Part shown: positions 5,034 to 31,117 of the stretch, piece by piece
Layout of the letters: every line of letters starts with the position of its first letter
Position numbering within the stretch: position 1 is the stretch's first letter
NCBI RefSeq assembly: GCF_007990525.1
Contig: NZ_AP019823.1
Location: 1,674,001-1,738,000, forward strand
DNA: 64,000 bases
Source of the DNA: Leptotrichia hofstadii
Lineage (GTDB): Bacteria; Fusobacteriota; Fusobacteriia; Fusobacteriales; Leptotrichiaceae
Direction: 5' to 3'
Notes under the pieces: model-generated
Databases searched by the model: none
Seen by the model: only the letters and a program-made list of their open reading frames with translations
What the model was told of the DNA's origin: nothing
Made by a program: the position numbers and the translations under genes

Positions 5034-5044
5034 TCTAATAAATT

Positions 5045-5210: not shown

Positions 5211-5287
5211 TGGTGGGACTGGTGGGGATCGAACCCACAACCTACCGATTAAGAGTCGGTTGCTCTGACCAGTTGAGCTACAGTCCC
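5211..5287 (-). tRNA. tRNA-Lys (anticodon CTT)
   Basis: The 77-base gene folds completely: acceptor GGGACTG/CAGTCCC, D arm GCTC/GAGC, anticodon stem ACCGA/TCGGT with loop CTCTTAA (anticodon CTT), T stem GTGGG/CCCAC with TTCGATC loop, discriminator A and an encoded CCA. It reads AAG codons. Its promoter (5334-5362) and terminator (5157-5187) make it a single-gene unit. Confidence 0.97.
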
Positions 5288-5333
5288 ATAAAAATTAAAT
5301 TATAAAAACAATTCTATTCAACAGCTCTTAATT

Positions 5334-5362
5334 ATAATACCACATTTTTTTCAATTTGTCAA
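5334..5362 (-). promoter_or_regulatory. Promoter of tRNA-Lys
   Basis: TTGACA (5362-5357) and TATTAT (5339-5334) spaced by 17 bases, with a TGG extension before the -10, about 45 bases upstream of the tRNA. Confidence 0.75.
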
Positions 5363-5431
5363 TTTAATAATTTCTTTTTTATACATCTCTTCACTTTTTA
5401 TTTTAAAATTTTACTAAATTATACCATGTTT

Positions 5432-5466
5432 TAAAAAAAGAGTTATCCCAATCAAGAAACAACTCT
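5432..5466 (-). terminator. Terminator of the Excalibur gene
   Basis: Minus strand hairpin GAGTTG.../...AACTC followed by seven T, starting ten bases past the stop codon at 5476. Confidence 0.6.
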
Positions 5467-5475
5467 GCATTTAAT

Positions 5476-5661
5476 TTATTTACTTTCACAAGCTATACCA
5501 TCTTTATCTCTGTCTAAATGTTTTGCATATCCTGGCTCGCCTTTTTTTATATTTTTGTAGCCTTTTGCACGTGCTTCCTTACAATTCTTGAAATACAATG
5601 TTTCCGAAAATGTATTTGCACTTACAAATACCAATGTCAATATCAAAAAAATTTTTTTCAT
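5476..5661 (-). CDS. Small secreted Excalibur calcium-binding-domain protein
   Basis: The 61-residue product starts at ATG 5661, because GGAGGAAG lies 6-13 bases upstream; an ATG five codons earlier overlaps this RBS and is less likely. Residues 1-19 are a signal peptide. The rest is one complete Excalibur domain: FKNCKEARAKGYKNI, then GEPGYAKHLDRDKDGIACE, with the DxDxDG-like loop DRDKDGIACE that binds calcium in the family and the two conserved cysteines. Such domains are normally appended to secreted nucleases or surface proteins; here the domain stands alone. It is a probable extracellular or periplasmic protein of unknown role. Confidence 0.85.
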   Translation of the reverse strand: MKKIFLILTLVFVSANTFSETLYFKNCKEARAKGYKNIKKGEPGYAKHLDRDKDGIACESK

Positions 5662-5725
5662 TTTGGCTTCCTCCATTTTTTATATTTTTAAACCAAAATT
5701 AACCCTATAAAATCTATTTTTCTCA

Positions 5726-5886
5726 GTTTTTGATATTGGGATAGTCTATATCTCAATATGTGACTGGGCTGTAAACAGTGGTGTTTTAGTCCCCTTCAAT
5801 ATTGGGGTGGTCTATATCAATTAAGAAAAGAAATTTTAAACTTAACGTGGGTTTTAGTCCCCTTCAATATTGGGGTGGTCTATATC
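5726..5886 (-). CRISPR. Minimal type VI-A (Cas13a-like) CRISPR array, 2 spacers
   Basis: Two identical 36-base repeats lie at 5783-5818 and 5851-5886, and a degenerate terminal copy with 9 bases missing lies at 5726-5752. They enclose spacers of 30 (5753-5782) and 32 (5819-5850) bases. In the minus direction the repeat begins GATATAGA, continues CCACCCCAATATTGAAGGGG and ends ACTAAAAC. From memory this matches the Leptotrichia shahii Cas13a direct repeat except for about one base, including the CCCC/GGGG crRNA stem and the ACTAAAAC 3' end. The degenerate repeat at the low-coordinate end is the expected distal end, so transcription runs on the minus strand from a leader at 5887-6010. No cas13a, cas1 or cas2 gene is in the window, so any effector must act in trans. 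The spacer targets are unknown. Confidence 0.85.
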
Positions 5887-5949
5887 TCATCATATAATTG
5901 GAATAATATAGTTTTTTGAATTTTAATTGTCCCTCTATTCTTAAATTTT

Positions 5950-5964
5950 GATATAGATTACCCC
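5950..5964 (-). other. Anti-repeat-like segment in the CRISPR leader
   Basis: Minus-strand GGGGTAATCTATATC is complementary to the 5' part of the array repeat (GATATAGACCACCCC) at 13 of 15 positions. It lies just downstream of the putative leader promoter (5974-6003), so a leader transcript would start with it. It could pair with the repeat or be a relic of an inverted repeat copy. Confidence 0.4.
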
Positions 5965-5973
5965 TTTTCATAT

Positions 5974-6003
5974 ATTTTAAGTACAGTTTATCTATAAAAA
6001 CAA
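5974..6003 (-). promoter_or_regulatory. Putative leader promoter of the CRISPR array
   Basis: Minus strand TTGTTT (6003-5998) and TAAAAT (5979-5974), spacing 18, about 85 bases upstream of the first full repeat and directly behind the purH stop codon. It is a moderate match only; readthrough from purH is the alternative. Confidence 0.4.
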
Positions 6004-6017
6004 GTATTTGTTTAATT

Positions 6018-7538
6018 TTAATGTTTGAAGTGTCTGATGCCAGTAAATACCATTGTCATTCCGTGTTCATCGGCAGCTTCGATTGACTCTTTGTCTCTAA
6101 TTGAGCCACCTGGCTGTACTAATGCTTTGATACCGTATTTTGCAGCTTCATCTACACAGTCTCTGAATGGGAAAAATGCGTCTGATGCCAGAACTGCTCC
6201 TTCTAGTGAATCCAAGTCCCCTTTGGCGTGTTCAAGTGCGTGCTGAGTTGCCCAGATTCTGTTTGTCTGTCCTGTTCCAACTCCTGTTGCCGCTCCATCT
6301 TTTACGACCACAATTGCATTTGATTTTACGTGTTTTACGACTTTCATTCCAAGTTCCATGTCTTTTAATTCTTGCTCTATTGGCTGTTTTTTCGTTACAA
6401 CTTCCATATTGTCAATCATTTTTTGATTTGTCTGCTGAACTAATATTCCACCGTCAACTTTTACATATTCCACTTTATCCTGCGGTTTTGCAACTTCGCA
6501 TTTTATTACTCTCAAATTTTTCTTGGATTTTAATATTTCCAGAGCTTCATCAGTAAATGCCGGGGCAATTACGATTTCTAGGAAAATTTTGTTCAGTTCC
6601 TGTGCAGTTTTTGCATCAATTTCTCTATTAATTGCAACAATTCCACCAAAAATTGATACTGGATCACAATCATGGGCTTTCTTATAAGCTGTGAAAACAT
6701 CATCTGCAACTGCCACACCACAAGGAGTCGAGTGTTTTACAGCACAGCAGGCAATTTCATCAAATTCATTTGCCACTTTCCAAGCAATATCCATATCCCT
6801 GATATTATTAAACGACAATTCTTTTCCATTTAACTGGACAAAATCCTTCATACTTCCATTTTCAGTAGTTGAAACGTAGTATGCAGACGATTGGTGAGGA
6901 TTTTCGCCATATCTTAAATCAAATTTCTTTTCATACGAAACATTCAAATATTTTGGATATTCCTCTTCCAGCAAAAAGTTAGAAATAGCCGCATCGTAAG
7001 CTGATGTTAAGTTAAACACCTTCCCAGCCAATTTTTTTTTTGTTTCAAATGAAACTTCACCATTATTTTCAATTTCTTCCATAACTTTCTCATAGTCTTC
7101 TGTTTCGCAGATAACTGTAACGTCCTTGAATGATTTTGCAGCCGAACGAAGCATTGTAGGCCCGCCTATATCGATAAATTCGATTTTTTCATCAAAAGTC
7201 TTGTCTGTCTGAACTTCCCTGAAAAACGGATAAAGATTAACAACAACATAATCAATCGTCTCTATTCCTTCTTTTGCAATCGTATCCATATGCTCCTTAT
7301 TGTCCCTAATCGCCAAAATTCCACCATGAATATTCGGATGCAACGTTTTCACCCTTCCATCCAGCATTTCTTTAAAATTAGTAACTTCTGAAACATCTAT
7401 TACAGAAAGCCCATTTTCCTTCAAAAACTTGTAAGTCCCTCCAGTCGAAATAATTTCCACACCTTTTTGATTTAAAAACTGTGCAAATTCCAATATCCCA
7501 GTCTTATCAAAAACACTAATCAAAGCTCTTTTTTTCAT
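6018..7538 (-). CDS. purH: Bifunctional AICAR transformylase / IMP cyclohydrolase
   Basis: A 506-residue cytosolic enzyme that catalyses the last two steps to IMP: formyl transfer from 10-formyl-THF to AICAR, then ring closure. Residues ~1-145 are the MGS-like cyclohydrolase domain ([29 protein letters not shown]). The rest is the transformylase, with the [10 protein letters not shown] catalytic segment (Lys-His), [18 protein letters not shown] and [10 protein letters not shown]. Length is normal. GGAGG lies 11 bases before the ATG. It stands alone about 29 kb from the other pur genes of the window, behind its own promoter with a dyad in the spacer (7573-7601), and is convergent with nothing: the CRISPR array follows on the same strand. 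Confidence 0.97.
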
Positions 7539-7572
7539 TCGGCATCATTCCTCCAATATATTTTGTTAATTT

Positions 7573-7601
7573 ATTTTATCACAAACCCTTGTATTTATCA
7601 A
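7573..7601 (-). promoter_or_regulatory. purH promoter with internal dyad
   Basis: TTGATA (7601-7596), 17 bases, TAAAAT (7578-7573) on the minus strand. An inverted repeat AACCTTG...CAAGGgTT overlaps the -35 and spacer, a position suited to a repressor; no regulator is identified. Confidence 0.6.
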
Positions 7602-7694
7602 GGTTGTGTAATTATTAACTTTTTGAAAATTGTAAATTTAAAATTATTATACAATAATCTATAAAATTAACTACAATTTAATTCCCTTATAAGC

Positions 7695-7723
7695 AAAAAA
7701 AAAAAAAAAAAGAATAGTATAAT
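7695..7723 (+). promoter_or_regulatory. Promoter with a 17-A homopolymer in the -35/spacer position
   Basis: TATAAT at 7718-7723 lies 43 bases before the nuclease gene start. The normal -35 and most of the spacer are replaced by an uninterrupted run of 17 A (7695-7711). Length changes in such tracts alter promoter strength, so this is a candidate phase-variable promoter. Confidence 0.5.
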
Positions 7724-7766
7724 TAAAAGGAAAATATAACTTTAAAACAAATAAGGAGGTTTTTTT

Positions 7767-8783
7767 ATGGGATTTATTAATCCATTTCAAATTTACTCTA
7801 AAGGAGAGAACACTATTACAAATAATATTCTATTACTTCTATCAAACTTGTATAGAATAAATCCAAAAATTTATGAGTTGTTTATAAACAGTATTCTTCC
7901 AGAAAACATCAATTATGAAGTTATCCCTGTTTTTACACAGCAAAAATCACAAAAGGAAGGAGGAGTTATCGACGGACATATCCAGACAAAAGCAACAAAA
8001 ATCATTATTGAAACCAAAATTACAGGATTAGACAATACAAAAAAACTTATTAATTACTGCAAAAATGAAAATTTAGCTGAAACAAATATATTAATTCACA
8101 TAAGTGATTCTACCTTTGATGAAACTACCATAAAATCTATAAATCAAAGAATAGGAATTTATAATTTTAATTTTGTTTCAATAACTTTTTCCGAATTAAT
8201 TTCTTCCCTTCAGGAAATTGCGGACGAATATCCTTTTAATGAAGAGCTATACCGTTTATCCAAAGATTTTTATTATTATTGTAGTTCAATGGGTCTAATA
8301 AAAAACGTATTTAGAATCGTTCCATGTAATAAAAGTTTTGAATTAAATAAAAAATATCGTTTATACTTCCAACCTGAATCCAGAGGATATTCAAACCATC
8401 AATTTACTGGAATATATACTGCAAAAGAAGTGAAATATATTGGAAAAGTAAATAAAGTTTTTTTGGCTGAGCTTACAGAAGAAGGAACATTAATTACTAA
8501 AAAAATTTTAGGCAATGCGGAAATTACTAACGAGGAAGAAAACAGAATCATCAATGCAATAAGGGAATTTCCAGAAATTTATGGCTATGGAGATATTTCA
8601 AAAAGACATATTTTCTTTTTATTTGACGATAATGATTTTTGTCCAACAAAATTTAAAAAAACTTCAAAATATGGTTTGCTAGGCTCTAGATTTTTTGACT
8701 TAAAAGCAGATTTGGAAATTGAAAATGTAGAGAAATTATCAACTTTAGAAATTGCAGAAAAATTAAATGATATTACTTGGTAA
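7767..8783 (+). CDS. Putative PD-(D/E)XK nuclease
   Basis: A 338-residue protein with a very good RBS (AAGGAGG, 7 bases before ATG). The N-terminal half shows a PD-(D/E)XK-like core: GGVIDGHI with Asp69, then KIIIETKI with Glu82-x-Lys84 at the end of a beta strand. Upstream is a GENTITNNIL motif of the kind seen in helix 1 of restriction-type nucleases. The C-terminal half (from about residue 180) is a separate alpha/beta domain without recognisable motifs. No methylase is adjacent, so a stand-alone nuclease, possibly defence related, is inferred rather than shown. It is transcribed away from purH and followed at 30 bases by a secreted-protein gene. Confidence 0.5.
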   Translation: MGFINPFQIYSKGENTITNNILLLLSNLYRINPKIYELFINSILPENINYEVIPVFTQQKSQKEGGVIDGHIQTKATKIIIETKITGLDNTKKLINYCKNENLAETNILIHISDSTFDETTIKSINQRIGIYNFNFVSITFSELISSLQEIADEYPFNEELYRLSKDFYYYCSSMGLIKNVFRIVPCNKSFELNKKYRLYFQPESRGYSNHQFTGIYTAKEVKYIGKVNKVFLAELTEEGTLITKKILGNAEITNEEENRIINAIREFPEIYGYGDISKRHIFFLFDDNDFCPTKFKKTSKYGLLGSRFFDLKADLEIENVEKLSTLEIAEKLNDITW

Positions 8784-8813
8784 GAATGTATTTTAAAAGA
8801 TTGGAAAAGAATT

Positions 8814-9605
8814 ATGAGAAAATTGTTGTTAATTTTAAGTTTGTTCGTTATAAATATTATTGGATTGGCTTATGAGAAATGTAATCCTAAAACAATCTAT
8901 GAAATTAGTGTAAATGATTTAAATGGAAGTTATTTTGGACAAAACAAAAAAGATGGAACAATTATGATAAAACTTGGTAAAAATGCTAACAAAGTACAGG
9001 CAATTCACTTTGATGAAAATAGGATTTTAAATAATTGTATTCTTGATCCCAAAATAACAGAATTTCATATTGAACATGGTTTATTTATCAATGCGATGTA
9101 TGCTGAAATGATGGATGGTGTATATAATAATAATCAAGACATAAAAATAGATTATGATTCATGTCTTGAGAAAAATCATCAATTTTGTAAAATTTCTAAA
9201 GATGCAGATATTAACGGAAATCCTGTGGGAATTTCATTTAATCAAGAAGTTCAGGATATTGAAATTTATGGAAATATAGTTGACGTTGAAAAAAGAAATG
9301 ATTATAAAAAAGTGATAATAGGTGAAGGATATGAGGAGGAGAATATTGCTGTATGTGCAAGTAAAAGTATTAGTGAAGAAAATTGTAAAAAAGAAAAATT
9401 CATAGTAAAATCTCCAAATGGTTATGCCAATCTTACTAGAAAAGCGTATGATAATTCGACTATTCGTGATAAAATAAAAAATGGAACAATTGTAGTCATA
9501 GATCCAATTGATATAAGTCCTTTTGATGTTGAAGGAGTATATGTTGAAGTTTTAGGACAACATAAATTTGGATACATTAATTGGAAATATTTGAAAAAGA
9601 AATAG
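8814..9605 (+). CDS. Secreted protein with C-terminal SH3-like domain
   Basis: A 263-residue product with signal peptide (MRKLLLILSLFVINIIGLAY). The central region has four cysteines (CNPK, NNCILDP, DSCLEK, HQFCKI) and no known fold that I recognise. The last ~70 residues (VKSPNGYANLTRKAYDNS onward, ending GYINWKYLKKK) follow the pattern of bacterial SH3 domains (NGYANLR...G..V...). The C-terminus resembles that of the truncated gene at 63270-64000. RBS is weak (GGAAAAG). It lies 30 bases after the nuclease gene and 39 before the next gene, so the three may form an operon. Confidence 0.65.
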   Translation: MRKLLLILSLFVINIIGLAYEKCNPKTIYEISVNDLNGSYFGQNKKDGTIMIKLGKNANKVQAIHFDENRILNNCILDPKITEFHIEHGLFINAMYAEMMDGVYNNNQDIKIDYDSCLEKNHQFCKISKDADINGNPVGISFNQEVQDIEIYGNIVDVEKRNDYKKVIIGEGYEEENIAVCASKSISEENCKKEKFIVKSPNGYANLTRKAYDNSTIRDKIKNGTIVVIDPIDISPFDVEGVYVEVLGQHKFGYINWKYLKKK

Positions 9606-9644
9606 TATTAAACATTTTAAATTTAAAATTTAGGAGAAATATAA

Positions 9645-10328
9645 ATGGAAAATAATAATGTTGAAAATAAAAATTTAGTAAAAATTCTAATTGGAATAAT
9701 AATTGCTCTTGTTCTAGTTATAGGATTTATCATCATAGGTAGTGGTATTTACCAATTTGTAAGTATGAAAAATAAAATAAGCGAGATGGAAAAAGTTCAA
9801 AAGGAACAAGAAAAACGACAGTTGGAAAATCAAATGATGGCTTCAGTACAAACTCAGGCTAAAGAAGACAACAAAAAAAGTGAAACCAAAACCAACGAAA
9901 CTAAGACTGAAACTAAAGAAGTTGATCCATATGAAAGAAGATTTACAGCTTCTGATATGGATTATACACTTGTTGAAATAAAAGGAATAAGAAGTAATAA
10001 CAAAATATTAGTTCAAGTTTTGGATGGAAAAGATAAAGGAAAAAAGGGATATATAAATTTAAAAGGCTTTAAAAACATAAGCACTTCTTCTCTAAAAAAA
10101 TATATCGGTACAGTTTGGGCTGCAACAGGTATCAGTAATGGAGTAGAAATGGAATACGGCCTAATACTTCATTTACCAAATGCCAGCAGTAATCAGTTAG
10201 CTGAATATAATTTAAATAAATTGCTCATAGAAAGCAAAATGTCTGGAGATTCAGTCATTAAATACGACTGTGAGCGTGACACAGCAAGAAATTTTGTACA
10301 AAATTATGATTCTTCAGCTTGCTATTAA
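9645..10328 (+). CDS. Membrane-anchored protein with Lys/Glu-rich stalk
   Basis: A 227-residue protein with one transmembrane helix at about residues 12-36 (LVKILIGIIIALVLVIGFII), followed by a charged coiled-coil stalk (residues ~40-100, rich in K, E, T) and a ~125-residue outer domain. Part of the outer domain (ILVQVLDGKDKGKKGYINLK) has the look of a small SH3-like beta barrel. Two cysteines near the end (YDCER and the DSSACY terminus) could form a disulphide. RBS AGGAG precedes the ATG at 10 bases. It is the last gene of the unit, closed by the terminator at 10335-10382. Function unknown. Confidence 0.65.
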   Translation: MENNNVENKNLVKILIGIIIALVLVIGFIIIGSGIYQFVSMKNKISEMEKVQKEQEKRQLENQMMASVQTQAKEDNKKSETKTNETKTETKEVDPYERRFTASDMDYTLVEIKGIRSNNKILVQVLDGKDKGKKGYINLKGFKNISTSSLKKYIGTVWAATGISNGVEMEYGLILHLPNASSNQLAEYNLNKLLIESKMSGDSVIKYDCERDTARNFVQNYDSSACY

Positions 10329-10334
10329 ATATTC

Positions 10335-10382
10335 AAAAAAATACTCAGACAACTAATTACACCACTGTTTGAGTATTTTTTA
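10335..10382. terminator. Bidirectional terminator between convergent genes
   Basis: AAATACTCA.../...TGAGTATTT stem with A-run before and T-run after. It serves the plus-strand membrane gene and, in reverse, rarA. Confidence 0.75.
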
Positions 10383-10415
10383 TACCAACTATTTTTCTAA
10401 ATTCAACAGACAAAT

Positions 10416-11645
10416 TTATTTTCCATTCTTCTTAATCTTCTTCAACCACTCATCTGCCGCCTTTTCAAATTTATTTTCCCCATGCTCGTAAAACTTGATT
10501 TTTTCATTCATATAAATTTGGTCTACATAATGATTTTCATAATTATGTGGGTATTTGTAGTCTTTTGCTCCAACTTTTGTGAGATGAACTGGTACTTCCT
10601 GAATTTTTTCATTTTCAATGTGGCTTAGTGCTGAATTTATAGCATTGTAGGCTGAATTGCTTTTGGGAGAAATTGCGAGATAGATTGCCACTTCAGATAA
10701 GATGATTCTAGCTTCGGGCATTCCAATTTCCTTTATTGCATTAAGTCCTGCCACAGCAACTGGTAAAGCCTGCGGATTTGCAAGCCCAATGTCTTCAGAA
10801 GCCAAAATTACAAGTCTTCTTGCAATATACAAAATATCTTCTCCGCCAGACAGCATTTTCGCCATCCAGTAGACAGTCGCATCAGGATCACTTCCACGAA
10901 TACTTTTTATCATTGCTGAAATTGTATTGTACTTGTCTTCTGTCTTGTGGTATGATTTTTTTGTATTCAAAATTTCCTTTACTTCATCTAGCGTAAACTC
11001 CACTCCAACATTTGTTATCAGTTCCAAAATATTTATAGCCTGCCTTGCATCTCCTTCGATTATTTCCGAAATATATCCCAAAATATCATCTGAAATTCCA
11101 AAATTCTCCTTTTCATTAATATTTTTCAATATTTTAAGCAAATCATCCTCACTCAGCTTCTTAAATTCAAATGCCATACATCTTGATAACAATGCATTAT
11201 TCAAGCTGTAATAAGGATTTTCAGTAGTCGCTCCAATTAAAATAATATTTCCATTTTCCAAATCTTCAAGCAGTGAATCCTGCTGCAACTTGTTAAATCT
11301 ATGAATTTCATCTAAAAATAGTAATGTCTGCTGACCATTTGTGTGAAAGCTGCTGTGTGCCTTGTCAGAAATATTCTTTATATCAGTTACAGAGGCTTTT
11401 ATAGCATTCAAATATTCATAATGGTAATTCATTTTATCAGCGATTATTTCTGCAAGCGTAGTTTTCCCTGTTCCCGGTGCTCCCCAGAAAATCGCATTCA
11501 TAAAGTTTCCTCGCTCAATAATCTTCCTCAAAATCCCATTTTCCCCAACCAATCTCTTCTGCCCATAAAAATCATCAAGACTTTTGGGACGGTATCTAAA
11601 TGCCAGCGGCTTCTTATCTTCATATACTTCATCAAATAAATTCAT
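10416..11645 (-). CDS. rarA: Replication-associated recombination protein A (AAA+ ATPase, MgsA family)
   Basis: A 409-residue clamp-loader-like AAA+ ATPase that acts at stalled replication forks. It has Walker A GAPGTGKTTLAEI (around residue 56), Walker B LLFLDEIHRFN, sensor 1 IILIGATTENP with the family-typical NPYYSLNNALLSRC, and the C-terminal tetramerisation region containing GSDPDATVYWMAKML. Length matches the family. RBS GGAA is weak. The gene sits 64 bases behind a 26-codon ORF and a promoter-terminator unit (11804-11909), so its expression may be attenuated. Confidence 0.95.
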   Translation of the reverse strand: MNLFDEVYEDKKPLAFRYRPKSLDDFYGQKRLVGENGILRKIIERGNFMNAIFWGAPGTGKTTLAEIIADKMNYHYEYLNAIKASVTDIKNISDKAHSSFHTNGQQTLLFLDEIHRFNKLQQDSLLEDLENGNIILIGATTENPYYSLNNALLSRCMAFEFKKLSEDDLLKILKNINEKENFGISDDILGYISEIIEGDARQAINILELITNVGVEFTLDEVKEILNTKKSYHKTEDKYNTISAMIKSIRGSDPDATVYWMAKMLSGGEDILYIARRLVILASEDIGLANPQALPVAVAGLNAIKEIGMPEARIILSEVAIYLAISPKSNSAYNAINSALSHIENEKIQEVPVHLTKVGAKDYKYPHNYENHYVDQIYMNEKIKFYEHGENKFEKAADEWLKKIKKNGK

Positions 11646-11709
11646 TTTTTTATATTTCCTTTTTTATAATTTTATTTAATTTTCTAAATATTAAAAATAC
11701 AAATAAAAA

Positions 11710-11790
11710 TTAACTTCTAAATAAGTAATTATTCTTTTTTTCTTTTAAAATTTCTATTTGTTGTTCTAATAAATAATTTTCCTCTTTCAT
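11710..11790 (-). CDS. 26-residue small ORF upstream of rarA
   Basis: ATG at 11790 is preceded by AAGGAGAAGGGG, one of the strongest ribosome sites in the window, with 1-5 bases spacing. The peptide (MKEENYLLEQQIEILKEK, then KNNYLFRS) would be a short amphipathic coil. It follows the terminator hairpin at 11815-11847, so it would be translated only on readthrough transcripts, and it lies 64 bases before rarA. It may be a leader peptide, or a remnant of an IS3-type OrfA, whose ends can look similar. Confidence 0.4.
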   Translation of the reverse strand: MKEENYLLEQQIEILKEKKNNYLFRS

Positions 11791-11803
11791 TCCCCTTCTC
11801 CTT

Positions 11804-11874
11804 AAAACAAAAAAGTCTTGTCATAACTTATTTAAATACGACAAGACCGATGATCAAAACGATCAATTTATCTT
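11804..11874 (-). ncRNA. Putative ~70-nt small RNA or attenuator upstream of rarA
   Basis: A near-consensus promoter (11881-11909) would start RNA at about 11874. The transcript has a small hairpin (TGATC-GTTTT-GATCA) and then an 8-bp perfect stem GTCTTGTC/GACAAGAC (11815-11847) followed by TTTTTTGTTTT. That layout gives a discrete RNA of about 70 nt, with readthrough into the small ORF and rarA. Confidence 0.5.
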
Positions 11875-11880
11875 GAATTA

Positions 11881-11909
11881 AGTATATCACTAAAACATTA
11901 ATTCGTCAA
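11881..11909 (-). promoter_or_regulatory. Strong promoter driving the rarA leader RNA
   Basis: TTGACG (11909-11904), 17 bases, TATACT (11886-11881) on the minus strand. Confidence 0.7.
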
Positions 11910-12010
11910 CAAACATTTTAATTTTTTTTAAATAAAGTAAATTATAAACACAAATATCATTTTTCAAAACTTTAATCACTAAACATCAATATTTTCAACA
12001 GTTTTAAAAA

Positions 12011-12814
12011 CTATTCTTCTCCATAAAGTTTCTTTTTGTTATCTGAAAAAACATTTAAAATTAATATTATTGTAAATATTACAACAACAGATGATGTTAA
12101 ATAAAAATAATAATTAAACACTACTTCCTGCATATTTGCATTTTGCATTATTTCTCTTATAAATCCAGAGAGTGTTTCCATTTTCCAGCCTTGACTTGTT
12201 TGAAGCAGATATAAATCTAAAAATAGCCCAGCAAAATAAAAAATTATCATTAGAATTATTGAACTTACGCCAGAAAAAATTATTGCAAATAGACTCTTTT
12301 TCTTATTATTCTCGTAAACTTTAATCGAAAATAAACACATTGTCAATAAAAATCCAATTAACTGCATCCCTTTTATTCCTTCTAAAACTCCCGTTTTAAA
12401 AAATATAGTAATTTTATCACTCATAGAAATACTCCCAGTATTTTTAACTATCGAATTTATCATCGAAAAAGTCACTCCAAGTGCAAATAAAACAATAGTT
12501 ATCACTATTATAACAAAAGTCCAGAATTTTATTTTATTCAAATTCTCATTACCAAATCTAGTCTTCATCATTTTTATAAAAATAACACTTAATATAATCA
12601 GTACAACAAAGCTAAATAACGTCTGAACAAGCGTTACCATTTCTCCAGCTTTCAAATCTCCTGTTTTTGCCACACTATTGAAATAATAACTGCCAAAAAT
12701 ACCTCTTTGAAAAATTAGAATACTCCATGTAAAAATCATTATTCCAACTATTTTAACAGCTCCCAATAAAATATCAATAAAATTCCTATTTTCTATTTTT
12801 TCAAAATTTCTCAT
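12011..12814 (-). CDS. Polytopic membrane protein of unknown function
   Basis: The start is placed at ATG 12814 because GGAGG lies 5 bases upstream; an ATG four codons earlier overlaps that site. The 267-residue protein has about six hydrophobic helices, with a lysine-rich break in the middle (KVYENNKKKS). No motif is recognised. It follows a cytosolic gene (12883-13842) by 68 bases in the same direction. Transcription may run on toward the 11.8 kb region. Confidence 0.65.
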   Translation of the reverse strand: MRNFEKIENRNFIDILLGAVKIVGIMIFTWSILIFQRGIFGSYYFNSVAKTGDLKAGEMVTLVQTLFSFVVLIILSVIFIKMMKTRFGNENLNKIKFWTFVIIVITIVLFALGVTFSMINSIVKNTGSISMSDKITIFFKTGVLEGIKGMQLIGFLLTMCLFSIKVYENNKKKSLFAIIFSGVSSIILMIIFYFAGLFLDLYLLQTSQGWKMETLSGFIREIMQNANMQEVVFNYYFYLTSSVVVIFTIILILNVFSDNKKKLYGEE

Positions 12815-12882
12815 AAAAGCCTCCATTATATTTTAAATTTTTGTAAATCAACATTTACAATTTTAAGTATGATTTATTTCTC

Positions 12883-13842
12883 TTAAAAACTGTACTCTTT
12901 ATAATCAAACCAGACATACCACAGTATTTTTTCTTTCTGATTAGGATATTCCCCAATAAGTTCTGTTACTATTGCCAATTCTTTTATTACTTCACTAAGC
13001 CACACATCTTCATCAGTTTCATCGTAATAAATTTCATATTTTTCCATTTTCTCTTCCGTTAAGTAATCACCAATTTTCAAATCTTCTGCTGGAAAATACT
13101 TCTCATCTTTTATATCAATCTTTACAATTTTTCCAGTTTTTGGATTTGCAAATAATGAATATTTCTGTTCCTTGTCTTCATACAGCAAATACTGACAATA
13201 TTTTTTTAGATTTCTTTTCTCTGATTCAGGAATTACTTTTTCAATGTGATTTCCTAATTTTATTCCGCTATATTTACGGTTAATTTTAATATTTTCATCT
13301 AGTTTGACTTCTATTTTCCCTGTATCAAAATATCTCTTTAAGATTTTTTCAATTAACCTCAATTCATCCCAATAATATTTTTTTAAATTTACAAATTCAG
13401 GAACATCAAGATTTACGTTGTATTCCTGCAAATTATTTAAAAACTCCTCAGTATTCCCTATTTCAATTTCATCAAACCATTTATTATTAACAATATACTT
13501 TCCTTCTTTTTTACTTATATAAAAAAAAACGCAAAAAGCATAAATATCTCTAAATACTGCAATAATAAATGGCTCTCCATCCTTTGCTTCTTCGTTATAA
13601 ATCAAAAATTTATTTTCAAAATTTCCATTTTTGGCTTTTACATATTTTTCTGTATTGTTTAAAATGTCACAAAGTAATTCATAATTTAAATTTTCCTTAA
13701 TTATTACCTCTTCTTCTCCACTATCTGTTTCTTCTTTTTTATATTGATTATACAGCCACAATTTTAATTTTTTACTCATAAATTTTTTTAAAAGAAAGCT
13801 ATCCCTAAATATTTTCTTTTCCCATAATGACTTATTCAACAT
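12883..13842 (-). CDS. Uncharacterised cytosolic protein
   Basis: A 319-residue acidic/lysine-rich soluble protein with no signal peptide or membrane segment. The C-terminal part (KYEIYYDETDEDVWLSEV, then YPNQKEKILWYVWFDYKEYSF) recalls the small DUF-type proteins found in toxin-immunity neighbourhoods, but no family is assigned. AGGTGAGG lies 11 bases before the ATG. The first 25 residues are basic and may be a poorly conserved extension. Confidence 0.55.
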   Translation of the reverse strand: MLNKSLWEKKIFRDSFLLKKFMSKKLKLWLYNQYKKEETDSGEEEVIIKENLNYELLCDILNNTEKYVKAKNGNFENKFLIYNEEAKDGEPFIIAVFRDIYAFCVFFYISKKEGKYIVNNKWFDEIEIGNTEEFLNNLQEYNVNLDVPEFVNLKKYYWDELRLIEKILKRYFDTGKIEVKLDENIKINRKYSGIKLGNHIEKVIPESEKRNLKKYCQYLLYEDKEQKYSLFANPKTGKIVKIDIKDEKYFPAEDLKIGDYLTEEKMEKYEIYYDETDEDVWLSEVIKELAIVTELIGEYPNQKEKILWYVWFDYKEYSF

Positions 13843-14038
13843 AACTGAAAAACCTCACCTAATTTATTTCCCATTATATCATAAAAAGAGAACTCTGAAA
13901 ATGTTAAAGTTTTCATTTAAAATTTTTACTTTTTCACTCCCTATTTACTTTTTTACCCAACCATATTATAATACATTTACCACAAAATGAATTAAAAAAT
14001 TCAAATTTTAAATATAAAAAATTGAAAGGCTGATAACA

Positions 14039-14536
14039 ATGAAAAAAAATATCTATTTTTATGAAACCAATACTCCAATTGGAAAAATTGGACTTGCCAC
14101 AACAGAAAATGATTCTCATATTACTGATGTAATCTGGAATTATGAAATTGAAAAATTTAAAAATGATGATAATTTTCAAATTAAAGAAACCGAGTTAATA
14201 AAAAAGGCAAAAAATCAGTTATTTGAATATTTTTCGAAAAAACGAAAACAATTTGACTTGCCACTTTTAAAAGAAGGAACTCCTTTTCAAATTTCCGTCT
14301 GGAACGCTCTTGAAACAATCCCTTACGGCGAAACCCGTTCCTACAAGGACATATCCGTTGCCATTAATAACGAAAAAGCAGTCCGTGCAGTCGGAATGGC
14401 AAACAATCGAAATAAAATCTCAATTTTTATTCCCTGCCATCGTGTAATTGGTATGAATGGAAAGTTAGTCGGATATGGTGGAGGACTCCATATAAAAGAG
14501 TTTTTATTGGAACTGGAAGGTATTGAAATAAAATAA
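14039..14536 (+). CDS. ogt: Methylated-DNA--protein-cysteine methyltransferase
   Basis: A 165-residue suicide DNA-repair enzyme that takes the methyl group from O6-methylguanine. The acceptor cysteine is in IPCHRVIG (about residue 133). The helix-turn-helix region reads IPYGETRSYKDISVAI, with the asparagine hinge VGMANNRN and the C-terminal GYGGGLHIKEFLLELE. The N-terminal ribonuclease-like domain is short, as in Ogt. GAAAGG lies 9 bases before the ATG. It is a single gene. Confidence 0.95.
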   Translation: MKKNIYFYETNTPIGKIGLATTENDSHITDVIWNYEIEKFKNDDNFQIKETELIKKAKNQLFEYFSKKRKQFDLPLLKEGTPFQISVWNALETIPYGETRSYKDISVAINNEKAVRAVGMANNRNKISIFIPCHRVIGMNGKLVGYGGGLHIKEFLLELEGIEIK

Positions 14537-14610
14537 TTTAAGAAAATTATATTGTAATTTAGGTATAATTTTATTTTTCATCAAATTTTCTACAGAAATA
14601 TAAAAAACAT

Positions 14611-14639
14611 TTGTATTCCAATTTAAAATATTGTATAAT
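14611..14639 (+). promoter_or_regulatory. Promoter of the small lipoprotein pair
   Basis: TTGTAT (14611-14616), 17 bases, TATAAT (14634-14639), about 75 bases before the first lipoprotein gene. Confidence 0.6.
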
Positions 14640-14715
14640 AAAAATATAAAAAAACACAAATAATCAATACATAAAATGAGATAAATATATTTAAAACATA
14701 AGGAGATGATATGCA

Positions 14716-14895
14716 ATGTTTAAAAAAATTTTATTAATGGTTATACTTGCTATGTCTGTCGTGGGATGTGAGCTTTTAAGTCCAAGTTACTGGAATGATG
14801 TAAGTCAATCCAGAAGAGAAAGAGGAGAAAAATGTTATAGAAATGAAAATGGATATGCTTACTGCGTAGACAAGTACGGAAATAGAACATACTAG
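14716..14895 (+). CDS. 59-residue lipoprotein, copy 1
   Basis: ATG at 14716 follows AAGGAGATG. Signal MFKKILLMVILAMSVVGC ends in lipobox VVGC, so the mature peptide is a ~42-residue lipid-anchored protein. It carries two cysteines within a C-x9-C spacing (KCYRNENGYAYC) and ends DKYGNR-x2. It is one of two tandem copies about 307 bases apart. Function unknown. Confidence 0.75.
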   Translation: MFKKILLMVILAMSVVGCELLSPSYWNDVSQSRRERGEKCYRNENGYAYCVDKYGNRTY

Positions 14896-15022
14896 CTATA
14901 TGTAATTTTATATTTCAACTTAAAATATTATTTAGTTAAAAAGAACACAAATAGTTAATACACAAAATCGAAGAAATATATTCACATAAATAGATAATTT
15001 AAACGGAAGGAAATGATATACA

Positions 15023-15202
15023 ATGTTTAAGAAAATTTTATTGATGATTATACTTGCTATGTCTGTCGTGGGATGTGAGCTTCTAAGTCCAAAAGAATGG
15101 AGCGAATACAATAAGAGAAGGGCTGAAAGAGGTGTAAGGTGTTATGAGAGAGCTGATGGAATTTATTACTGCAATGATAAATACGGAAACAGAGTAGACT
15201 GA
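15023..15202 (+). CDS. 59-residue lipoprotein, copy 2
   Basis: Same length and architecture as copy 1: an almost identical signal (MFKKILLMIILAMSVVGC), CELLSP after the lipid cysteine, RCYERADGIYYC and DKYGNR near the end. The middle has diverged while the signal and cysteine block are kept, which suggests selection on both copies. RBS GGAAGG precedes ATG 15023. The ~100-base upstream region also resembles that of copy 1, so the duplicated unit includes the leader. A strong terminator follows at 15276. Confidence 0.75.
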   Translation: MFKKILLMIILAMSVVGCELLSPKEWSEYNKRRAERGVRCYERADGIYYCNDKYGNRVD

Positions 15203-15275
15203 TATATAATAGTATAGATATAAAACTAATCAATAAGATGGATAATGATAATCAGAAAAGAAGGAAACATATATT

Positions 15276-15323
15276 AAAGGCAGGGGCTTCCCATACAGGG
15301 GAATGCTTTCCCGCCTTTTTTTG
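15276..15323 (+). terminator. Branched intrinsic terminator after the lipoprotein pair
   Basis: AAGGC...GCCTT outer stem with an inner TTCCC/GGGGAA hairpin and a run of seven T. It is GC-rich compared with its surroundings. 15324-15600 holds no gene that I can support. Confidence 0.8.
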
Positions 15324-15600
15324 ATAAATATTTTATTTCTATTCTATCCCAGTTCAATTTCTTCATTAATTTTCTGATGAAAATCAATTTTGTTTTCAAC
15401 ATTAATAACATTAACTAATCATTTGTTTGACATATATTTTCTATAAAGCTATCTATTTTGTCTTATGTTATTCACTTCTTTTATTGTTTTCTGTATGAAT
15501 GATATTTTTTATTCTAATAGGAACAATTTCATGCCCATATAGAGCAATTTCCTCTGAAGGAATTTTTTTGATACAAATTGCAGTTAATAAAATATTTTCG

Positions 15601-25631: not shown

Positions 25632-26762
25632 TTATTCCTCTTCCAGATAACTATTTACTAAATCATCGCATTTTTTCCTATTTACTGTCATTAATTCAAA
25701 AACATTATCCCTATTTTGCTTTAATTCTTCCAAATCAACTTTTTCCTTAGTTTTGAAAACATACCCCAGAATATCCAGATTGCATTTTCTTCTTAATATT
25801 GTTTCATTGGAAACTAATTTTGAAATACCGTTTATTTCCTGCTTTTTCTGAATTATTTCAACTAATTCCTTATAATTTTCAGGCTTTATTTTTTCACTTC
25901 CTTTTTCAAAAAAGTGCTGCGACTGAACAAATAATATATTGTTTTTATTCTCTTTTTTTTCATTAAATATTATTACCTGATTTTTTAGTGTATTGTTAAA
26001 GGGTATAGAAACTACATATTCTATTTTATCAGATTTTATAAAATTCTTCATTTCCTCGTTTTTTAACAGATAAAAGGCATCCTTTTCTACTATTCCTTTT
26101 TTACTGTTGCTTAAAAAACTATACAGCAACTTGCTGGTATCCGAGTTTTTGGTTAGCATCACTGCAGAATCTTTATTAGATTTTGAATTTTTTAATGAGT
26201 ATAAAATCTCTATAATTGCATTTTTTTCATCCGTTTCTATTTTTTCACGATAAAAATTATTCCCTTCAAAAAAATCAACGCTATACAATATTTCATTATT
26301 TCTTATATCTAAAAATTCCAGTGATAATTGATTAACGCTTTCATCACGTGTAATTGGCAGATTAATTACATTGTCTAAATAATTTTGTGCAATTTTTGCA
26401 TATTTCCCTCTTAAAATATTCAGTTTCAGCTCCATTTCCAGTTCCGGTAGGCTTTCGATAAACCCTTGCTTGTCCGGATGTTCTTCTATAAAACTGTATG
26501 TCTGGCTGAATATTGCTATTCTATTTGATAAATTTTTCATATTTTCCAAATATGTGCCGTTCAAATTATACTTAAATCCCAGATTATTTAAATATTCCAA
26601 AAATAAATAGCTGTCGTCTCTTAAATCTTCCAGTTCTTCATAAACAACCTTACTTGCACAGATAACATATAAAAGTAGAGACATTTTCAAAATCTGTAAT
26701 TTTTTCTGATTTTTATTATTTTCCAACTCATCTGTTATAAGTTCAAAGAATTTATTCTTCAT
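25632..26762 (-). CDS. HsdM-like protein lacking methyltransferase motifs
   Basis: A 376-residue protein. The C-terminal third follows the end of type I/II N6-adenine methylase (HsdM) subunits: IEYVVSIPFNNTLKNQVIIF (the strand after motif IV in HsdM), NNILFVQSQHFF, and SNETILRRKCNLDILGYVF, matching the DYNLNIPRYV element. The central part carries none of the SAM-binding or NPPY catalytic motifs, and the protein is shorter than an HsdM (~500). It overlaps the HsdS-like gene by 11 bases. No HsdR gene is present. It may have become a structural or regulatory partner of the S subunit; the homology is inferred from pattern only. Confidence 0.5.
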   Translation of the reverse strand: MKNKFFELITDELENNKNQKKLQILKMSLLLYVICASKVVYEELEDLRDDSYLFLEYLNNLGFKYNLNGTYLENMKNLSNRIAIFSQTYSFIEEHPDKQGFIESLPELEMELKLNILRGKYAKIAQNYLDNVINLPITRDESVNQLSLEFLDIRNNEILYSVDFFEGNNFYREKIETDEKNAIIEILYSLKNSKSNKDSAVMLTKNSDTSKLLYSFLSNSKKGIVEKDAFYLLKNEEMKNFIKSDKIEYVVSIPFNNTLKNQVIIFNEKKENKNNILFVQSQHFFEKGSEKIKPENYKELVEIIQKKQEINGISKLVSNETILRRKCNLDILGYVFKTKEKVDLEELKQNRDNVFELMTVNRKKCDDLVNSYLEEE

Positions 26763-27339
26763 TTATTATCACCTTATTTTTCGCTAGAATTTTTTCTTCG
26801 ATATATTTTTTCTTAATTTTCAGATACTCTATCGTATTTTCTTCCTCATTTTCAAAACTTGTTATTATTTCAACCATTCTGTCCTGTTCTTCCCTATCAG
26901 GCAAGTCTATGTCAAGTTCAACAATATCAGTTTTATTTACAGCTCTGACAGCGCTCATGGTCTTGTATTTCTTTTCAAAATAAAGCAGCAGCAGCTCTGT
27001 CTTTAAAAGCCATTGCAAATACTTGGGATTTATTCTGTCGTTTGCCCGTAAAATGAAGTAAAGCGTTGCAGGAAGTACATTTTCGTATTCCTTGTCAACA
27101 TATACGACTTCTATTTTACTCCCTTTTGCCTGAAACAGCACGTCGTTCTTTCTTACAAAGTATTTTTCATTTATTTTATTTTTCCCATTTTTATATCTTT
27201 CAGGAACTTCCGCATTTTCAAAGCTCTCTATCTTCCCATTATTTACAAGCGTCGGATTTAACAAAAGATAACCTGTTTCCGAATCGGCTGTTTTTACATT
27301 TAATGGTGCTATTATATCTACATTATCTCCTAATTTCAT
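26752..27339 (-). CDS. Half-size HsdS-like DNA specificity protein
   Basis: A 195-residue protein with one target-recognition domain: YFVRKNDVLFQAKGSKIEVV, LPATLYFILRANDRINPKYL, WLLKT, then DIVELDIDLPDREEQDRMVE, followed by a C-terminal coiled coil. These are the standard elements of one half of an HsdS subunit (~400 residues with two TRDs). A half-S must dimerise to recognise a bipartite site. The GGGAAGG site lies upstream of the ATG. An extended -10 promoter (27366-27374) is in the gap to the J-like gene, so this and the HsdM-like gene can be expressed independently. Confidence 0.7.
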   Translation of the reverse strand: MKLGDNVDIIAPLNVKTADSETGYLLLNPTLVNNGKIESFENAEVPERYKNGKNKINEKYFVRKNDVLFQAKGSKIEVVYVDKEYENVLPATLYFILRANDRINPKYLQWLLKTELLLLYFEKKYKTMSAVRAVNKTDIVELDIDLPDREEQDRMVEIITSFENEEENTIEYLKIKKKYIEEKILAKNKVIINEE

Positions 27340-27365
27340 ATTTTCACTTCCCTTCCCTTGTAAAT

Positions 27366-27374
27366 ATTATACCA
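27366..27374 (-). promoter_or_regulatory. Extended -10 promoter of the HsdS/HsdM-like pair
   Basis: TGGTATAAT on the minus strand 27 bases upstream of the ATG, with no good -35. The Hsp70 gene promoter (31015-31023) has the same TGGTATAAT core. Confidence 0.5.
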
Positions 27375-27451
27375 TAAAAAAATGTGGAATACTATATAAT
27401 AAATCTTTTTTTATATATAAAATATCTTAATTTTAATCTTAATTTTACCCA

Positions 27452-29179
27452 CTAATTTTTATTTTCAATATCATTTCTAAATTCAGTAAAGCAGCCACCA
27501 TTACTTTTAAGCTGTGTATCTTCTTCCATCTGTTTCTTATCCTTGTAAATCATTACATCTTCAGGATTCTCAACAAATAAAGTTGTTCCTGAAGCCTTTA
27601 TCTTGGCATTGCATTTAAATTTGAATATTCTGTCTTTAACCCCATTTTTCAAGAGAATATTGTATCTTTTTTTAGGAAATTTCTCTATAACTAAAAAGTC
27701 GTAATCCCCTGAAGCAGTGCTTCCCCTTATTCCTGTCTTCTCTAAATACTCATCTTTTTTAGCACTGTAGTACAAATTATTATCAGTAACATAAAAGCTG
27801 GTATCCTTGTCAAGGGAAACCATCTTCTCCTCTTTCGCATCCAGAACTATATTTTCATCATTCTGTTCTGCATTTTGAGATGTTTCGTTGTTTGACATAA
27901 TTAAATAAACTATTATGCAAAACATTGTTGCTATGAGTATAAAAATAATTATATTCTGATTTGATCCCTTCGCTTTTTTTGGTTTCATCAGATGAAATGA
28001 TTTTCTTTTTTTCAGAAATTCTTTTTCTTTCTTTTTATTTTCAATCCATGTCTTCCTTGTTTCCTGCAATTTTTCCTCAAGAACTTCAATAGAATCATTT
28101 TCAGGCCAGTATAACTTTGCATCATTTAAGTATTTTTGAGCTTCTTCAAATTTAAATGCCTTTATCGCTCTCAATGCTTCAATGCACAGATTTTCAGATT
28201 TTTCAGCATATCTATTTTCTTTTGCTGTTTTCTGTCTTGAGCTGCCATCATTTTGCCTGTATTCTTTCATTCCGCTTGATTTTTTAGAGACAGTATACGG
28301 TATTTTATTCTCCTTGCAAAATCCTATAAAAATACTTTTTGCTTCTTCCTTGTTTTCCACAATCTTCTGTATTTCGTCAATAAATTCCTCAGAAGGAATT
28401 TTATCATCTGTCAAGTTGTGGATTTGTTCGGCTCTTTCGAGTATTTTCAATGCTTTTAAATATTGGAGATATTTTAAATATCCATTGTATCTTCTTAATT
28501 TTTCTTTATTTTTTAATATTATTTCACATGCGCTATATAGTTTTTTCTTGGCAGAAGTTTCATTGTCAAACTTAATCAGATGTTTTCTTTTTTCGTCAAT
28601 TTGTTCCTGAGTCAGCGTTTTTATGTCTAGTCCTTCAGAAACTAAAAATTGATATAAATTCTCTTTGCCTAAAATTTCCAGATGTTTTTCAAATACTGAA
28701 AATTCAAAAAATTCATCCTGATTTTTGTTAATATTTTCATAAAAATTCCTGTATAATTTTTGATTATATTCACTAGGTAAAATTTTTCTTCCACTAATTT
28801 TTATTCTTTCTCTTACCAGATTTTCTTGCCGATGTGTTCTTTTGGCAATTTCCTTTACAATTTCTTCTTTAATTTCTGCATTTTTTATATATTTCAAAAA
28901 ATTGTCTATCGGATCAAACAGTTTTTTCTGGGCATCTTTTATTAGTTCTTCTCTTCTAGCTTCATTTAGCATTTCCTGCCTTATAATGCCAGTTTTTGCG
29001 AGATTGCTGTATTTTCTGTATTTTTTCCCATCAAAAGGGTCGCTTTCCTTTGCCAGCCAATACCGTTTTTTTGCTTCTATTCGCGCTTCTATTTTCTTTT
29101 CGTCTTTTTCAGGAACTGGATAATACTCAAGCCCAAGAATTATGTACCAGTTATTTATTATTCGACTCTCTTCTGCCAT
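27452..29179 (-). CDS. Single-pass membrane protein with J-like N-terminus (Hsp70 partner)
   Basis: A 575-residue protein. The start NNWYIILGLEYYPVP, then KKIEARIEAKKRYWL, resembles a J domain, but the loop carries no HPD motif. Residues ~60-400 are almost entirely helical and charged, with a tetratricopeptide-like stretch near residue 330 (CIEALRAIKAFKFEEAQKYL). One membrane helix lies at about 406-425 (IIIFILIATMFCIIVYLIM) and a ~145-residue C-terminal domain follows on the other side. It starts 61 bases after the Hsp70 gene, RBS AAAGGAGGAG. Context makes it the dedicated membrane co-chaperone or substrate adaptor of that Hsp70. Function unknown. Confidence 0.65.
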   Translation of the reverse strand: MAEESRIINNWYIILGLEYYPVPEKDEKKIEARIEAKKRYWLAKESDPFDGKKYRKYSNLAKTGIIRQEMLNEARREELIKDAQKKLFDPIDNFLKYIKNAEIKEEIVKEIAKRTHRQENLVRERIKISGRKILPSEYNQKLYRNFYENINKNQDEFFEFSVFEKHLEILGKENLYQFLVSEGLDIKTLTQEQIDEKRKHLIKFDNETSAKKKLYSACEIILKNKEKLRRYNGYLKYLQYLKALKILERAEQIHNLTDDKIPSEEFIDEIQKIVENKEEAKSIFIGFCKENKIPYTVSKKSSGMKEYRQNDGSSRQKTAKENRYAEKSENLCIEALRAIKAFKFEEAQKYLNDAKLYWPENDSIEVLEEKLQETRKTWIENKKKEKEFLKKRKSFHLMKPKKAKGSNQNIIIFILIATMFCIIVYLIMSNNETSQNAEQNDENIVLDAKEEKMVSLDKDTSFYVTDNNLYYSAKKDEYLEKTGIRGSTASGDYDFLVIEKFPKKRYNILLKNGVKDRIFKFKCNAKIKASGTTLFVENPEDVMIYKDKKQMEEDTQLKSNGGCFTEFRNDIENKN

Positions 29180-29240
29180 TTTTATTATTTCTCCTCCTTT
29201 ACATCAAGATTTTTTATCCAGCACAATTAGGATTATATAC

Positions 29241-30893
29241 TTACAGCACCGCAATTCCTTGCGATTTACTTGTCAATCTTTCTAATTTTTCCTTAGATAT
29301 TATACTTTTTGTTTCTAATTTTACATTTACTTCCTTATTTCCAGCTTTGTCCCTTCCTCTTATTTCCAAAATCCCTTCTTTATTCAATTTCAGAGTGATT
29401 TCCACTAAAGCTCCTGCTGGAAGGTTTTCAGGCAGTTCCAATATCGCATTGCCTATTTTCAAGTCCTCATCTACGTCAAAATACTTATCCATATAGTCAT
29501 TTTCATAAATTTCTATATCTACTGTCTCCTGATTGTCATTAAGCGTCGTAAAATTACCCGAAACTTCCAAAATTCCACTTGGCATAGGCTCATTTTTTAT
29601 AATCATGTTAAAACAGCTCTTAACTCCATCTTTATTTTCAACTTTTACTGCAAAGCTCTTTGTTGTTGCAATGACAATTTCTCTTGTATTTCCACCTATT
29701 CCCATCATTTCAGGAGAGAATGTCAAATCTTCCTTGTAATCCTTTGCTCTCAATTCCTTTTCATCTCCATTAACCATTACTGTTACTTCCTTGTCAGATT
29801 CAAAATCCTGCCCTGCAAGGCTCTTCTGGTTATTCACATAAACATTTGCAGCATGAATTGCCGCTCCCTTCGCAACGGCTTCATCCGGCTCAAGGATTTT
29901 TATTTCTATTCCTCCAAAGTTTTCTGTCAATGCCCTTTTTATCTGCGGCATTCTTGTAGAGCCACCAACAAGAAGTATTTCATCTATTTTTTCATATCCT
30001 TTTCTTTTTGCTACATCAATTACTTCTTTCGTTTTTTTCAAAGTTTCATTTAGCAATGTAGAAGTTATCTCTTCAAATTCATCTCTAGTTATAGAGACTT
30101 TTTCCCTGCTTCCCATAACCTCCAGCAAATCTCCAGCCTGACTTCGTGAAGTTAGCTGTTTTTTTATCTTTTCTGCCTTCAATCGTAAATCCTGTTTTGC
30201 ATATTCATCAAACTCAATATCATAACCTATTTTCTTGACAAATTGGTCAGCAAGATATTCTATCAATACTTCATCCCAGTTTTTTCCACCTAAATCATGA
30301 TCCCCGTCTGAACAGATAACCTGAATTTTATCAGAACTGATACGCATAATCGTAACGTCAAAAGTCCCGCCTCCTAAATCATAAACCAGAATCGTCTTTT
30401 CATTCTGTTCCTTTGCGCATCCATAGTACAGTGCCGCCGCTGTTGGCTCGCTTATGATTTCCAGTACGTTAAGTCCTGCGATTTTACCTGCATTTTTAGT
30501 TGCTGTTCGCTCCGCTGTCCCAAAGTAGGCTGGACAAGTTATTACAACATCCTTAACTTCCACTCCAAGCTGTTCTGAAGCATCTTGTGTCAATTTTCTT
30601 AAAATAAAAGCCGATATTTCTTCAGGAGTCTTGTCTTCCCCATTATAATTAATTGCAAAATCTGTCTTTCCCATAAGCGTTTTTACAAGCATTACTGTAT
30701 TTTCAGGATTTAAAACTGCCTCAGATTTTGCATCTGATCCTACAATCACATTATCTCCGTCAAATTCAACCACAGACGGTGTTATATTATCTCCATCATT
30801 ATTTTTAATTACTTCAGCCCTTGCTGTATCATCCACACGAGCTATACAGGAATAAGTCGTTCCCAAATCAATTCCAAAAACATATTTTGACAT
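29241..30893 (-). CDS. Hsp70/DnaK-family chaperone lacking the C-terminal lid
   Basis: The start is ATG 30893 (MSKYVFG), with GGGAG 8 bases upstream; the TTG two codons before is not needed. The 550-residue protein has a full Hsp70 ATPase: GIDLGTTYSCIA, EPTAAALYYG, VYDLGGGTFDVT and EILLVGGSTRMPQIK. A beta-sandwich substrate domain (SGNFTTLNDNQETVDIEIYE, GILEIRGRDKAGNKEV) follows. It ends about where DnaK begins its alpha-helical lid, so it is ~60-80 residues shorter than housekeeping DnaK. It is an accessory Hsp70 tied to the J-like membrane gene downstream, not the general DnaK (no grpE or dnaJ nearby). Confidence 0.85.
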   Translation of the reverse strand: MSKYVFGIDLGTTYSCIARVDDTARAEVIKNNDGDNITPSVVEFDGDNVIVGSDAKSEAVLNPENTVMLVKTLMGKTDFAINYNGEDKTPEEISAFILRKLTQDASEQLGVEVKDVVITCPAYFGTAERTATKNAGKIAGLNVLEIISEPTAAALYYGCAKEQNEKTILVYDLGGGTFDVTIMRISSDKIQVICSDGDHDLGGKNWDEVLIEYLADQFVKKIGYDIEFDEYAKQDLRLKAEKIKKQLTSRSQAGDLLEVMGSREKVSITRDEFEEITSTLLNETLKKTKEVIDVAKRKGYEKIDEILLVGGSTRMPQIKRALTENFGGIEIKILEPDEAVAKGAAIHAANVYVNNQKSLAGQDFESDKEVTVMVNGDEKELRAKDYKEDLTFSPEMMGIGGNTREIVIATTKSFAVKVENKDGVKSCFNMIIKNEPMPSGILEVSGNFTTLNDNQETVDIEIYENDYMDKYFDVDEDLKIGNAILELPENLPAGALVEITLKLNKEGILEIRGRDKAGNKEVNVKLETKSIISKEKLERLTSKSQGIAVL

Positions 30894-31014: not shown

Positions 31015-31023
31015 ATTATACCA
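31015..31023 (-). promoter_or_regulatory. Extended -10 promoter of the Hsp70 gene
   Basis: Minus strand TGGTATAAT, leader about 120 bases. The 322-base gap to malQ holds this promoter and the malQ promoter back to back. Confidence 0.55.
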
Positions 31024-31117
31024 CATTCATTATTAAATTTCATTAATTTTTTTATAAGATATCCTCGGAACCTTAATATGAAACCAGTTAAGATTAATTT
31101 TAATTTTCAACAATTTT

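Follow-up and report, generated by a model that had tools for sequence, protein, structure and literature searches.

Why should the genome of Leptotrichia hofstadii (2.6 Mb) keep genes of a chaperone set beside remnants of a type I methyltransferase, and could the two work together? The question is raised by four adjacent genes in a 64,000-nt stretch of this genome, here called the window. A sequence-only reading had described them as a lidless Hsp70, a membrane protein with a J-like start lacking the HPD motif, a single-TRD HsdS and an HsdM-like protein without SAM or NPPY motifs, with no HsdR, and had proposed that the block could be a DNA-targeting or envelope-stress system not yet described. 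The four ORFs were confirmed within 25632-30893, all on the minus strand (Table 1). A second block lies at C1:1193453-1198706 (locus L009) with the gene order of the window and a GrpE-like gene (PF01025, 2.3e-9) at its head: GrpE-like, Hsp70, J-like, half HsdS and HsdM-like. Identity between the two copies is 76% for HsdS, 65% for Hsp70, 52% for the HsdM-like protein and 35% for the J-like protein. The GrpE-like gene is present in most blocks; the ancestral block had it besides the other four, and the window-type copy has lost it. No HsdR-like ORF was seen beside the window block or the L009 copy. The ordinary type I restriction-modification (RM) locus of this genome is far off at 2.38 Mb (L192, 3015-9388), where it adjoins an integrase and encodes an HsdM of 725 aa with NPPY, a two-TRD HsdS and an HsdR of 977 aa.

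Table 1. Features of the block in the window (positions count from the first nucleotide of the window).
Feature	Position	Strand	Description
HsdM-like protein, 376 aa	25632..26762	(-)	helical N-terminus and C-terminal half of HsdM methylase fold
Half HsdS, 195 aa	26752..27339	(-)	one TRD and one helical conserved region
hsdS/hsdM-like promoter	27366..27393	(-)	28-nt element RGTATTC-N12-TGNTATAAT
J-like membrane protein, 575 aa	27452..29179	(-)	J-type N-terminal domain, helical cytosolic part, one TM segment, C-terminal domain predicted outside
J-type N-terminal domain without HPD, residues 1-100	28880..29179	(-)	
TM segment of J-like protein, residues 410-428	27896..27952	(-)	
Lidless Hsp70, 550 aa	29241..30893	(-)	Pfam HSP70
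Chaperone-gene promoter	31015..31042	(-)	TGAAATTTA-N10-TGNTATAAT

The Hsp70 matches PF00012 in two stretches (E 8e-116) that make up the nucleotide-binding domain and the peptide-binding beta domain (Pfam). The alpha lid is absent because the protein ends right after the beta domain. The J-like protein has no Pfam match. Its single TM segment has an N-in/C-out charge pattern; one such segment is found in all 15 members compared, and the positive-inside pattern of the block members places the N-terminus in the cytosol. The HPD motif is missing from 13 of 13 homologues. An AlphaFold model of residues 1-110 has the topology of a J-domain, and its four top PDB matches are all J-domains, but weak ones (E 0.19 and upwards). 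No similarity was detected when the J-type profile was compared by hhalign with three ordinary-type J-domains of another Hsp70 locus of this genome (L010). In that locus the J-domain proteins carry HPE or degenerate motifs, and proteins with DKNYY repeats adjoin both Hsp70 loci (L009, 5294-7318; L010, 7610-11850). The C-terminal domain of the J-like protein is variable. Its form in genomes G080 and G074 (L135, L136) is similar to TM proteins that stand alone next to the L009 block: three single-TM proteins encoded in tandem there (1264-3320) share their C-terminal domain with the J-like proteins of these two genomes, in which it occurs as a fusion. In genome G077, two Hsp70 genes are arrayed with several J-like genes, repeated and in part broken (L137-L138, G077:C1:814000-848000), which suggests that the J-like family has been amplified there and is decaying.

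A comparable set is HscC with DjlB and DjlC of Escherichia coli, where a short Hsp70 (~550 aa) likewise has J partners of its own and has been suggested to act with membrane clients (PMC8215388), the likeness being one of size and partner type alone. In contrast to HscC/DjlB/DjlC, the J-type domain of the block lacks HPD and an HsdM-like/half HsdS (M-S) pair is attached. Furthermore, most blocks encode a dedicated GrpE-like protein, whereas HscC is believed to work without GrpE.

As for the M-S pair, the half HsdS has one Methylase_S domain (Pfam, E 1.7e-10), and all intact copies consist of 195 aa with one TRD, none having the two TRDs of a type I system. Residues 212-341 of the HsdM-like protein match the C-terminal half of N6_Mtase (Pfam, 1.6e-7), and the hhalign match to ordinary HsdM is confined to residues 238-371. 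Ordinary HsdM (510-530 aa) is longer than this protein by about 140 residues, and in all 11 homologues both the FxGxG-type motif I (SAM) and the NPPF-type motif are absent. The contents of the block were thus described correctly by the sequence-only reading. It had also suggested comparing a predicted structure of the 376-residue protein with HsdM, and the fold does agree: the top Foldseek matches of the AlphaFold model, a model of low confidence (pLDDT 65), are HsdM structures (3lkd, E 7e-7; 7vru; EcoR124I). Type I M2S and "Type 1 1/2" methyltransferases with a single-TRD S (PMC3874165) are alike in the HsdM fold, the Methylase_S TRD and the single-TRD S. Unlike them, the block is without motif I, NPPF and HsdR, and its TRD is frozen rather than variable.

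The half HsdS is among the most conserved block proteins, with 75-97% identity across species and paralogues and a mean column identity of 89%. Among 20 ordinary TRDs of the genus, by comparison, at least 70% identity is reached in just 2 of 190 pairs, and most pairs fail to align over 100 residues. The DNA target of the half HsdS therefore seems to be fixed, as in a regulator, rather than diversified as in restriction. Half HsdS proteins made by engineering dimerise and are functional, and a resemblance to homodimeric regulators, BmrR among them, has been noted (PMC6158711). The overlap between hsdS and the hsdM-like gene is 11 nt in 12 of 12 homologous pairs, a constancy which suggests that their translation may be coupled.

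All block genes are under purifying selection. Within block types, dN/dS is 0.02-0.05 for HsdS, 0.01-0.10 for Hsp70, 0.06-0.14 for the HsdM-like protein and 0.13-0.24 for the J-like protein, and it reaches 0.24 (HsdM-like) and 0.37 (J-like) in the most distant pairs, where dS is near saturation. The M-S pair can nevertheless be lost, since the hsdM-like frame is broken in G070 and a transposase-like ORF interrupts hsdS in G080 (L048, 6664-9204, where a TnpB-like ORF of 414 aa splits the gene in two). Such broken copies, together with the lost catalytic motifs, would fit the remains of a type I methyltransferase decaying as pseudogenes. Against this, the frames are intact in 11 homologues and HsdS is strongly conserved; for the intact copies a pseudogene is refuted by dN/dS far below 1, and the explanation as a whole is scarcely credible. 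The 376-residue protein is thus no broken form of an HsdM frame kept by relatives, as the sequence-only reading had considered it might be, and belongs to an intact, selected family.

The promoters are also conserved. RGTATTC, followed at constant spacing by TGNTATAAT (28 nt in all), is found upstream of hsdS in 10 of 10 blocks, and the A-form of this pattern has only two sites in the L. hofstadii genome, both at hsdS copies. Immediately upstream of hsdS, the box is missing in G077 and G080. The other pattern, TGAAATTTA-N10-TGNTATAAT, lies ahead of hsp70 or grpE in nine of the ten blocks and has three sites in the L. hofstadii genome, two of them at such blocks and one other in locus L198. Downstream of this third site, at ~1640-1755 of L198, a short hydrophobic ORF (MMNWDLTVLALIITAFLFFSSQK) follows a strong ribosome-binding site; it looks like a small membrane peptide of the type I toxin kind, judged from its sequence. 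The similarity of promoters proposed earlier for the two gene pairs holds in part: both have TGGTATAAT, but this element alone is common, a generic extended -10 with five occurrences in the window, and the conserved upstream box differs between the hsdS/hsdM-like promoter and the chaperone promoter. Inspection by eye found no palindromic operator common to both promoters, and no CIRCE element was present in the loci examined. Chance, or a decaying restriction system, is ruled out by the selection, the frozen HsdS, the constant overlap and the conserved promoters.

Profile searches of 13 Leptotrichia genomes identified the HsdM-like protein in nine, the half HsdS in the same nine, and the J-like protein and the Hsp70 of block type in ten each. 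Ten contiguous blocks were found, in seven of the 13 genomes. Wherever the M-S pair occurs, chaperones occur in the same genome (9/9), and the two pairs are contiguous in 7/9; independent occurrence in most genomes, which was to speak against a common system, was not what we observed. The M-S pair lies ~20-35 kb from the Hsp70/J array in G077 and ~440 kb from the chaperones in G080, G074 has chaperones alone with no M-S pair, and G073, G075 and G079 have neither pair. In other fusobacteria the HsdM-like profile found ordinary HsdM C-termini alone, as it did outside the genus in a search of 389 genomes from 292 genera. In this sample, matches to the J-domain profile were restricted to the genus, the one in G073 belonging to the profile itself. 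A GTDB contig scan with the HsdS alignment, which used two peptide patterns and is weak evidence of absence, returned only Leptotrichia, including Leptotrichia sp. oral taxon 879 and L. hongkongensis. The four-gene order, for which a check across fusobacteria had been proposed, recurs in ten blocks confined to this genus.

Do the two pairs form one system, or are they only neighbours? They could be two independent modules, an HscC-like membrane chaperone pair and a DNA-binding M-S remnant, whose adjacency is preserved by the closeness of the species and by duplication of the whole block. The M-S genes and the chaperones have separate promoters, and since the pairs are apart in G077 and G080 and the chaperones stand alone in G074, coupling is not obligatory; for this reason mere neighbourhood stays a serious rival. 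The four genes have a shared history, their trees recovering the same block clades, but plain vertical descent would also yield concordant trees. However, adjacency has been kept at three kinds of locus despite divergence to 52-76% (M-S, Hsp70) and 35% (J), no genome has the M-S pair without chaperones, and where the GrpE-like gene was lost the M-S pair was still retained beside Hsp70 and J. On balance we regard independent modules as somewhat unlikely.

Another explanation looks to the resident restriction systems. The M-S proteins could be dominant-negative subunits that modulate or inhibit a resident type I RM system, or the half HsdS could methylate in trans with an ordinary HsdM. The homology to HsdM and HsdS, the one ordinary type I system in the L. 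hofstadii genome, and the fact that a full S can be replaced by a half S (PMC6158711) are all compatible with this. Genome G069, however, has two blocks with no ordinary HsdS and no further HsdM by profile, which means that the pair can do without a resident type I system, and in L. hofstadii the resident HsdM is of a different, 725-aa type. This explanation is very unlikely.

A stronger candidate is defence. If the block were a defence or conflict system not yet described, the M-S pair would recognise a fixed sequence of invader DNA and Hsp70/J/GrpE would serve as an ATP-driven switch or membrane effector. The GAP1-N2 GTPase-centred conflict systems include an Hsp70, a GrpE and a DnaJ-FNIII protein (Kaur et al. 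2020, PMC7159879), so that a unit of Hsp70, GrpE and a J-type protein is common to them and to the block. The components of the block derive from restriction-modification, and its distribution within the genus is patchy (9/13). A related element with a J-type N-terminus is present in G073, and hhalign relates the J-type N-terminus of the block to that of the element with E 3e-6 over 39 columns. The element itself (L139, G073:C1:264000-280000, at 4345-15413) is an integrase-flanked set resembling the Hsp70 variants of the systems described by Kaur et al. 2020; it encodes a GTPase-like protein, a 378-aa ORF at the GrpE position, an Hsp70, an Hsp70 with a long C-terminal extension, a 1049-aa J-type protein and a zinc-ribbon GTPase-like protein. 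In contrast to GAP1-N2 systems, the block has no GTPase, vWA, FNIII or zinc ribbon, carries the M-S pair instead, and lies off mobile elements; no GAP1/DO-type GTPase was seen in the window block or the L009 copy. Nor does it encode a nuclease or toxin. The blocks occupy three kinds of chromosomal neighbourhood, not islands, and these are fixed, with an endonuclease-phosphatase gene and a PTS gene or with trpS-rimP-nusA. Viral contigs and phages searched with HsdS, and plasmids searched with the HsdM-like and J-like proteins, gave no match, and PADLOC matched no defence system, returning only a generic Specificity_I and weak matches. The TRD is not diversifying, unlike what an arms race would produce. 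Defence thus appears unlikely, and envelope-linked regulation is somewhat more likely, given the fixed positions, the non-diversifying target and the lack of any mobile or phage context in the searches made.

We therefore return to regulation as the preferred reading. The TRD is frozen, the catalytic motifs are lost, the two genes overlap and their promoter is a dedicated one; together these features point to a fixed-target, non-methylating DNA-binding complex. We suggest, tentatively, that the methylase-dead M-S pair is a domesticated complex of this kind, that it acts together with a membrane-tethered Hsp70/J/GrpE set, and that its role may be that of a regulator responding to the envelope. 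One module would be the chaperone set, made up of the lidless Hsp70 and the HPD-less J-type TM protein, to which most copies add a GrpE-like exchange factor, with the J-type domain facing the cytosol and the variable C-terminal domain presumably outside. The other would be the methyltransferase remnant, in which a homodimerising single-TRD HsdS and an HsdM-like scaffold without SAM-binding motifs may come together as an M2-(half S)2-like complex, one that would bind a single fixed DNA sequence and leave it unmethylated. The membrane-anchored Hsp70/J set would sense the state of the envelope and control whether the M-S complex assembles or binds DNA; the complex could then act as a transcription regulator. 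Contact between the modules is a predicted part of this scheme. DnaK is known to control sigma32 or HspR. The DnaK-sigma32 and DnaK-HspR circuits are a functional analogy only, in that an Hsp70 controls a DNA-binding regulator; the scheme proposed here differs in having a methyltransferase remnant as regulator and an Hsp70 recruited to the membrane.

A literature search, with subscription papers and preprints mostly outside its reach, found no paper linking Hsp70 with HsdS/HsdM loci. We found no description of a conserved, duplicated block in Leptotrichia, which are mouth bacteria, that joins a membrane-anchored Hsp70 set to a methylase remnant. An undescribed DNA-targeting or envelope-stress system, as first proposed, is possible. 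A non-catalytic M-S pair acting as a DNA-binding regulator set by a membrane Hsp70/J/GrpE, a form of envelope-to-DNA signalling (or defence) of a kind not described before, is likewise an idea we put forward with reserve. If true, a type I methyltransferase would have been stripped of catalysis and retained as a DNA-binding device with a fixed target, linked to a membrane chaperone. The frozen HsdS half makes its DNA target directly measurable, and the small size of the block makes it testable in a laboratory host.
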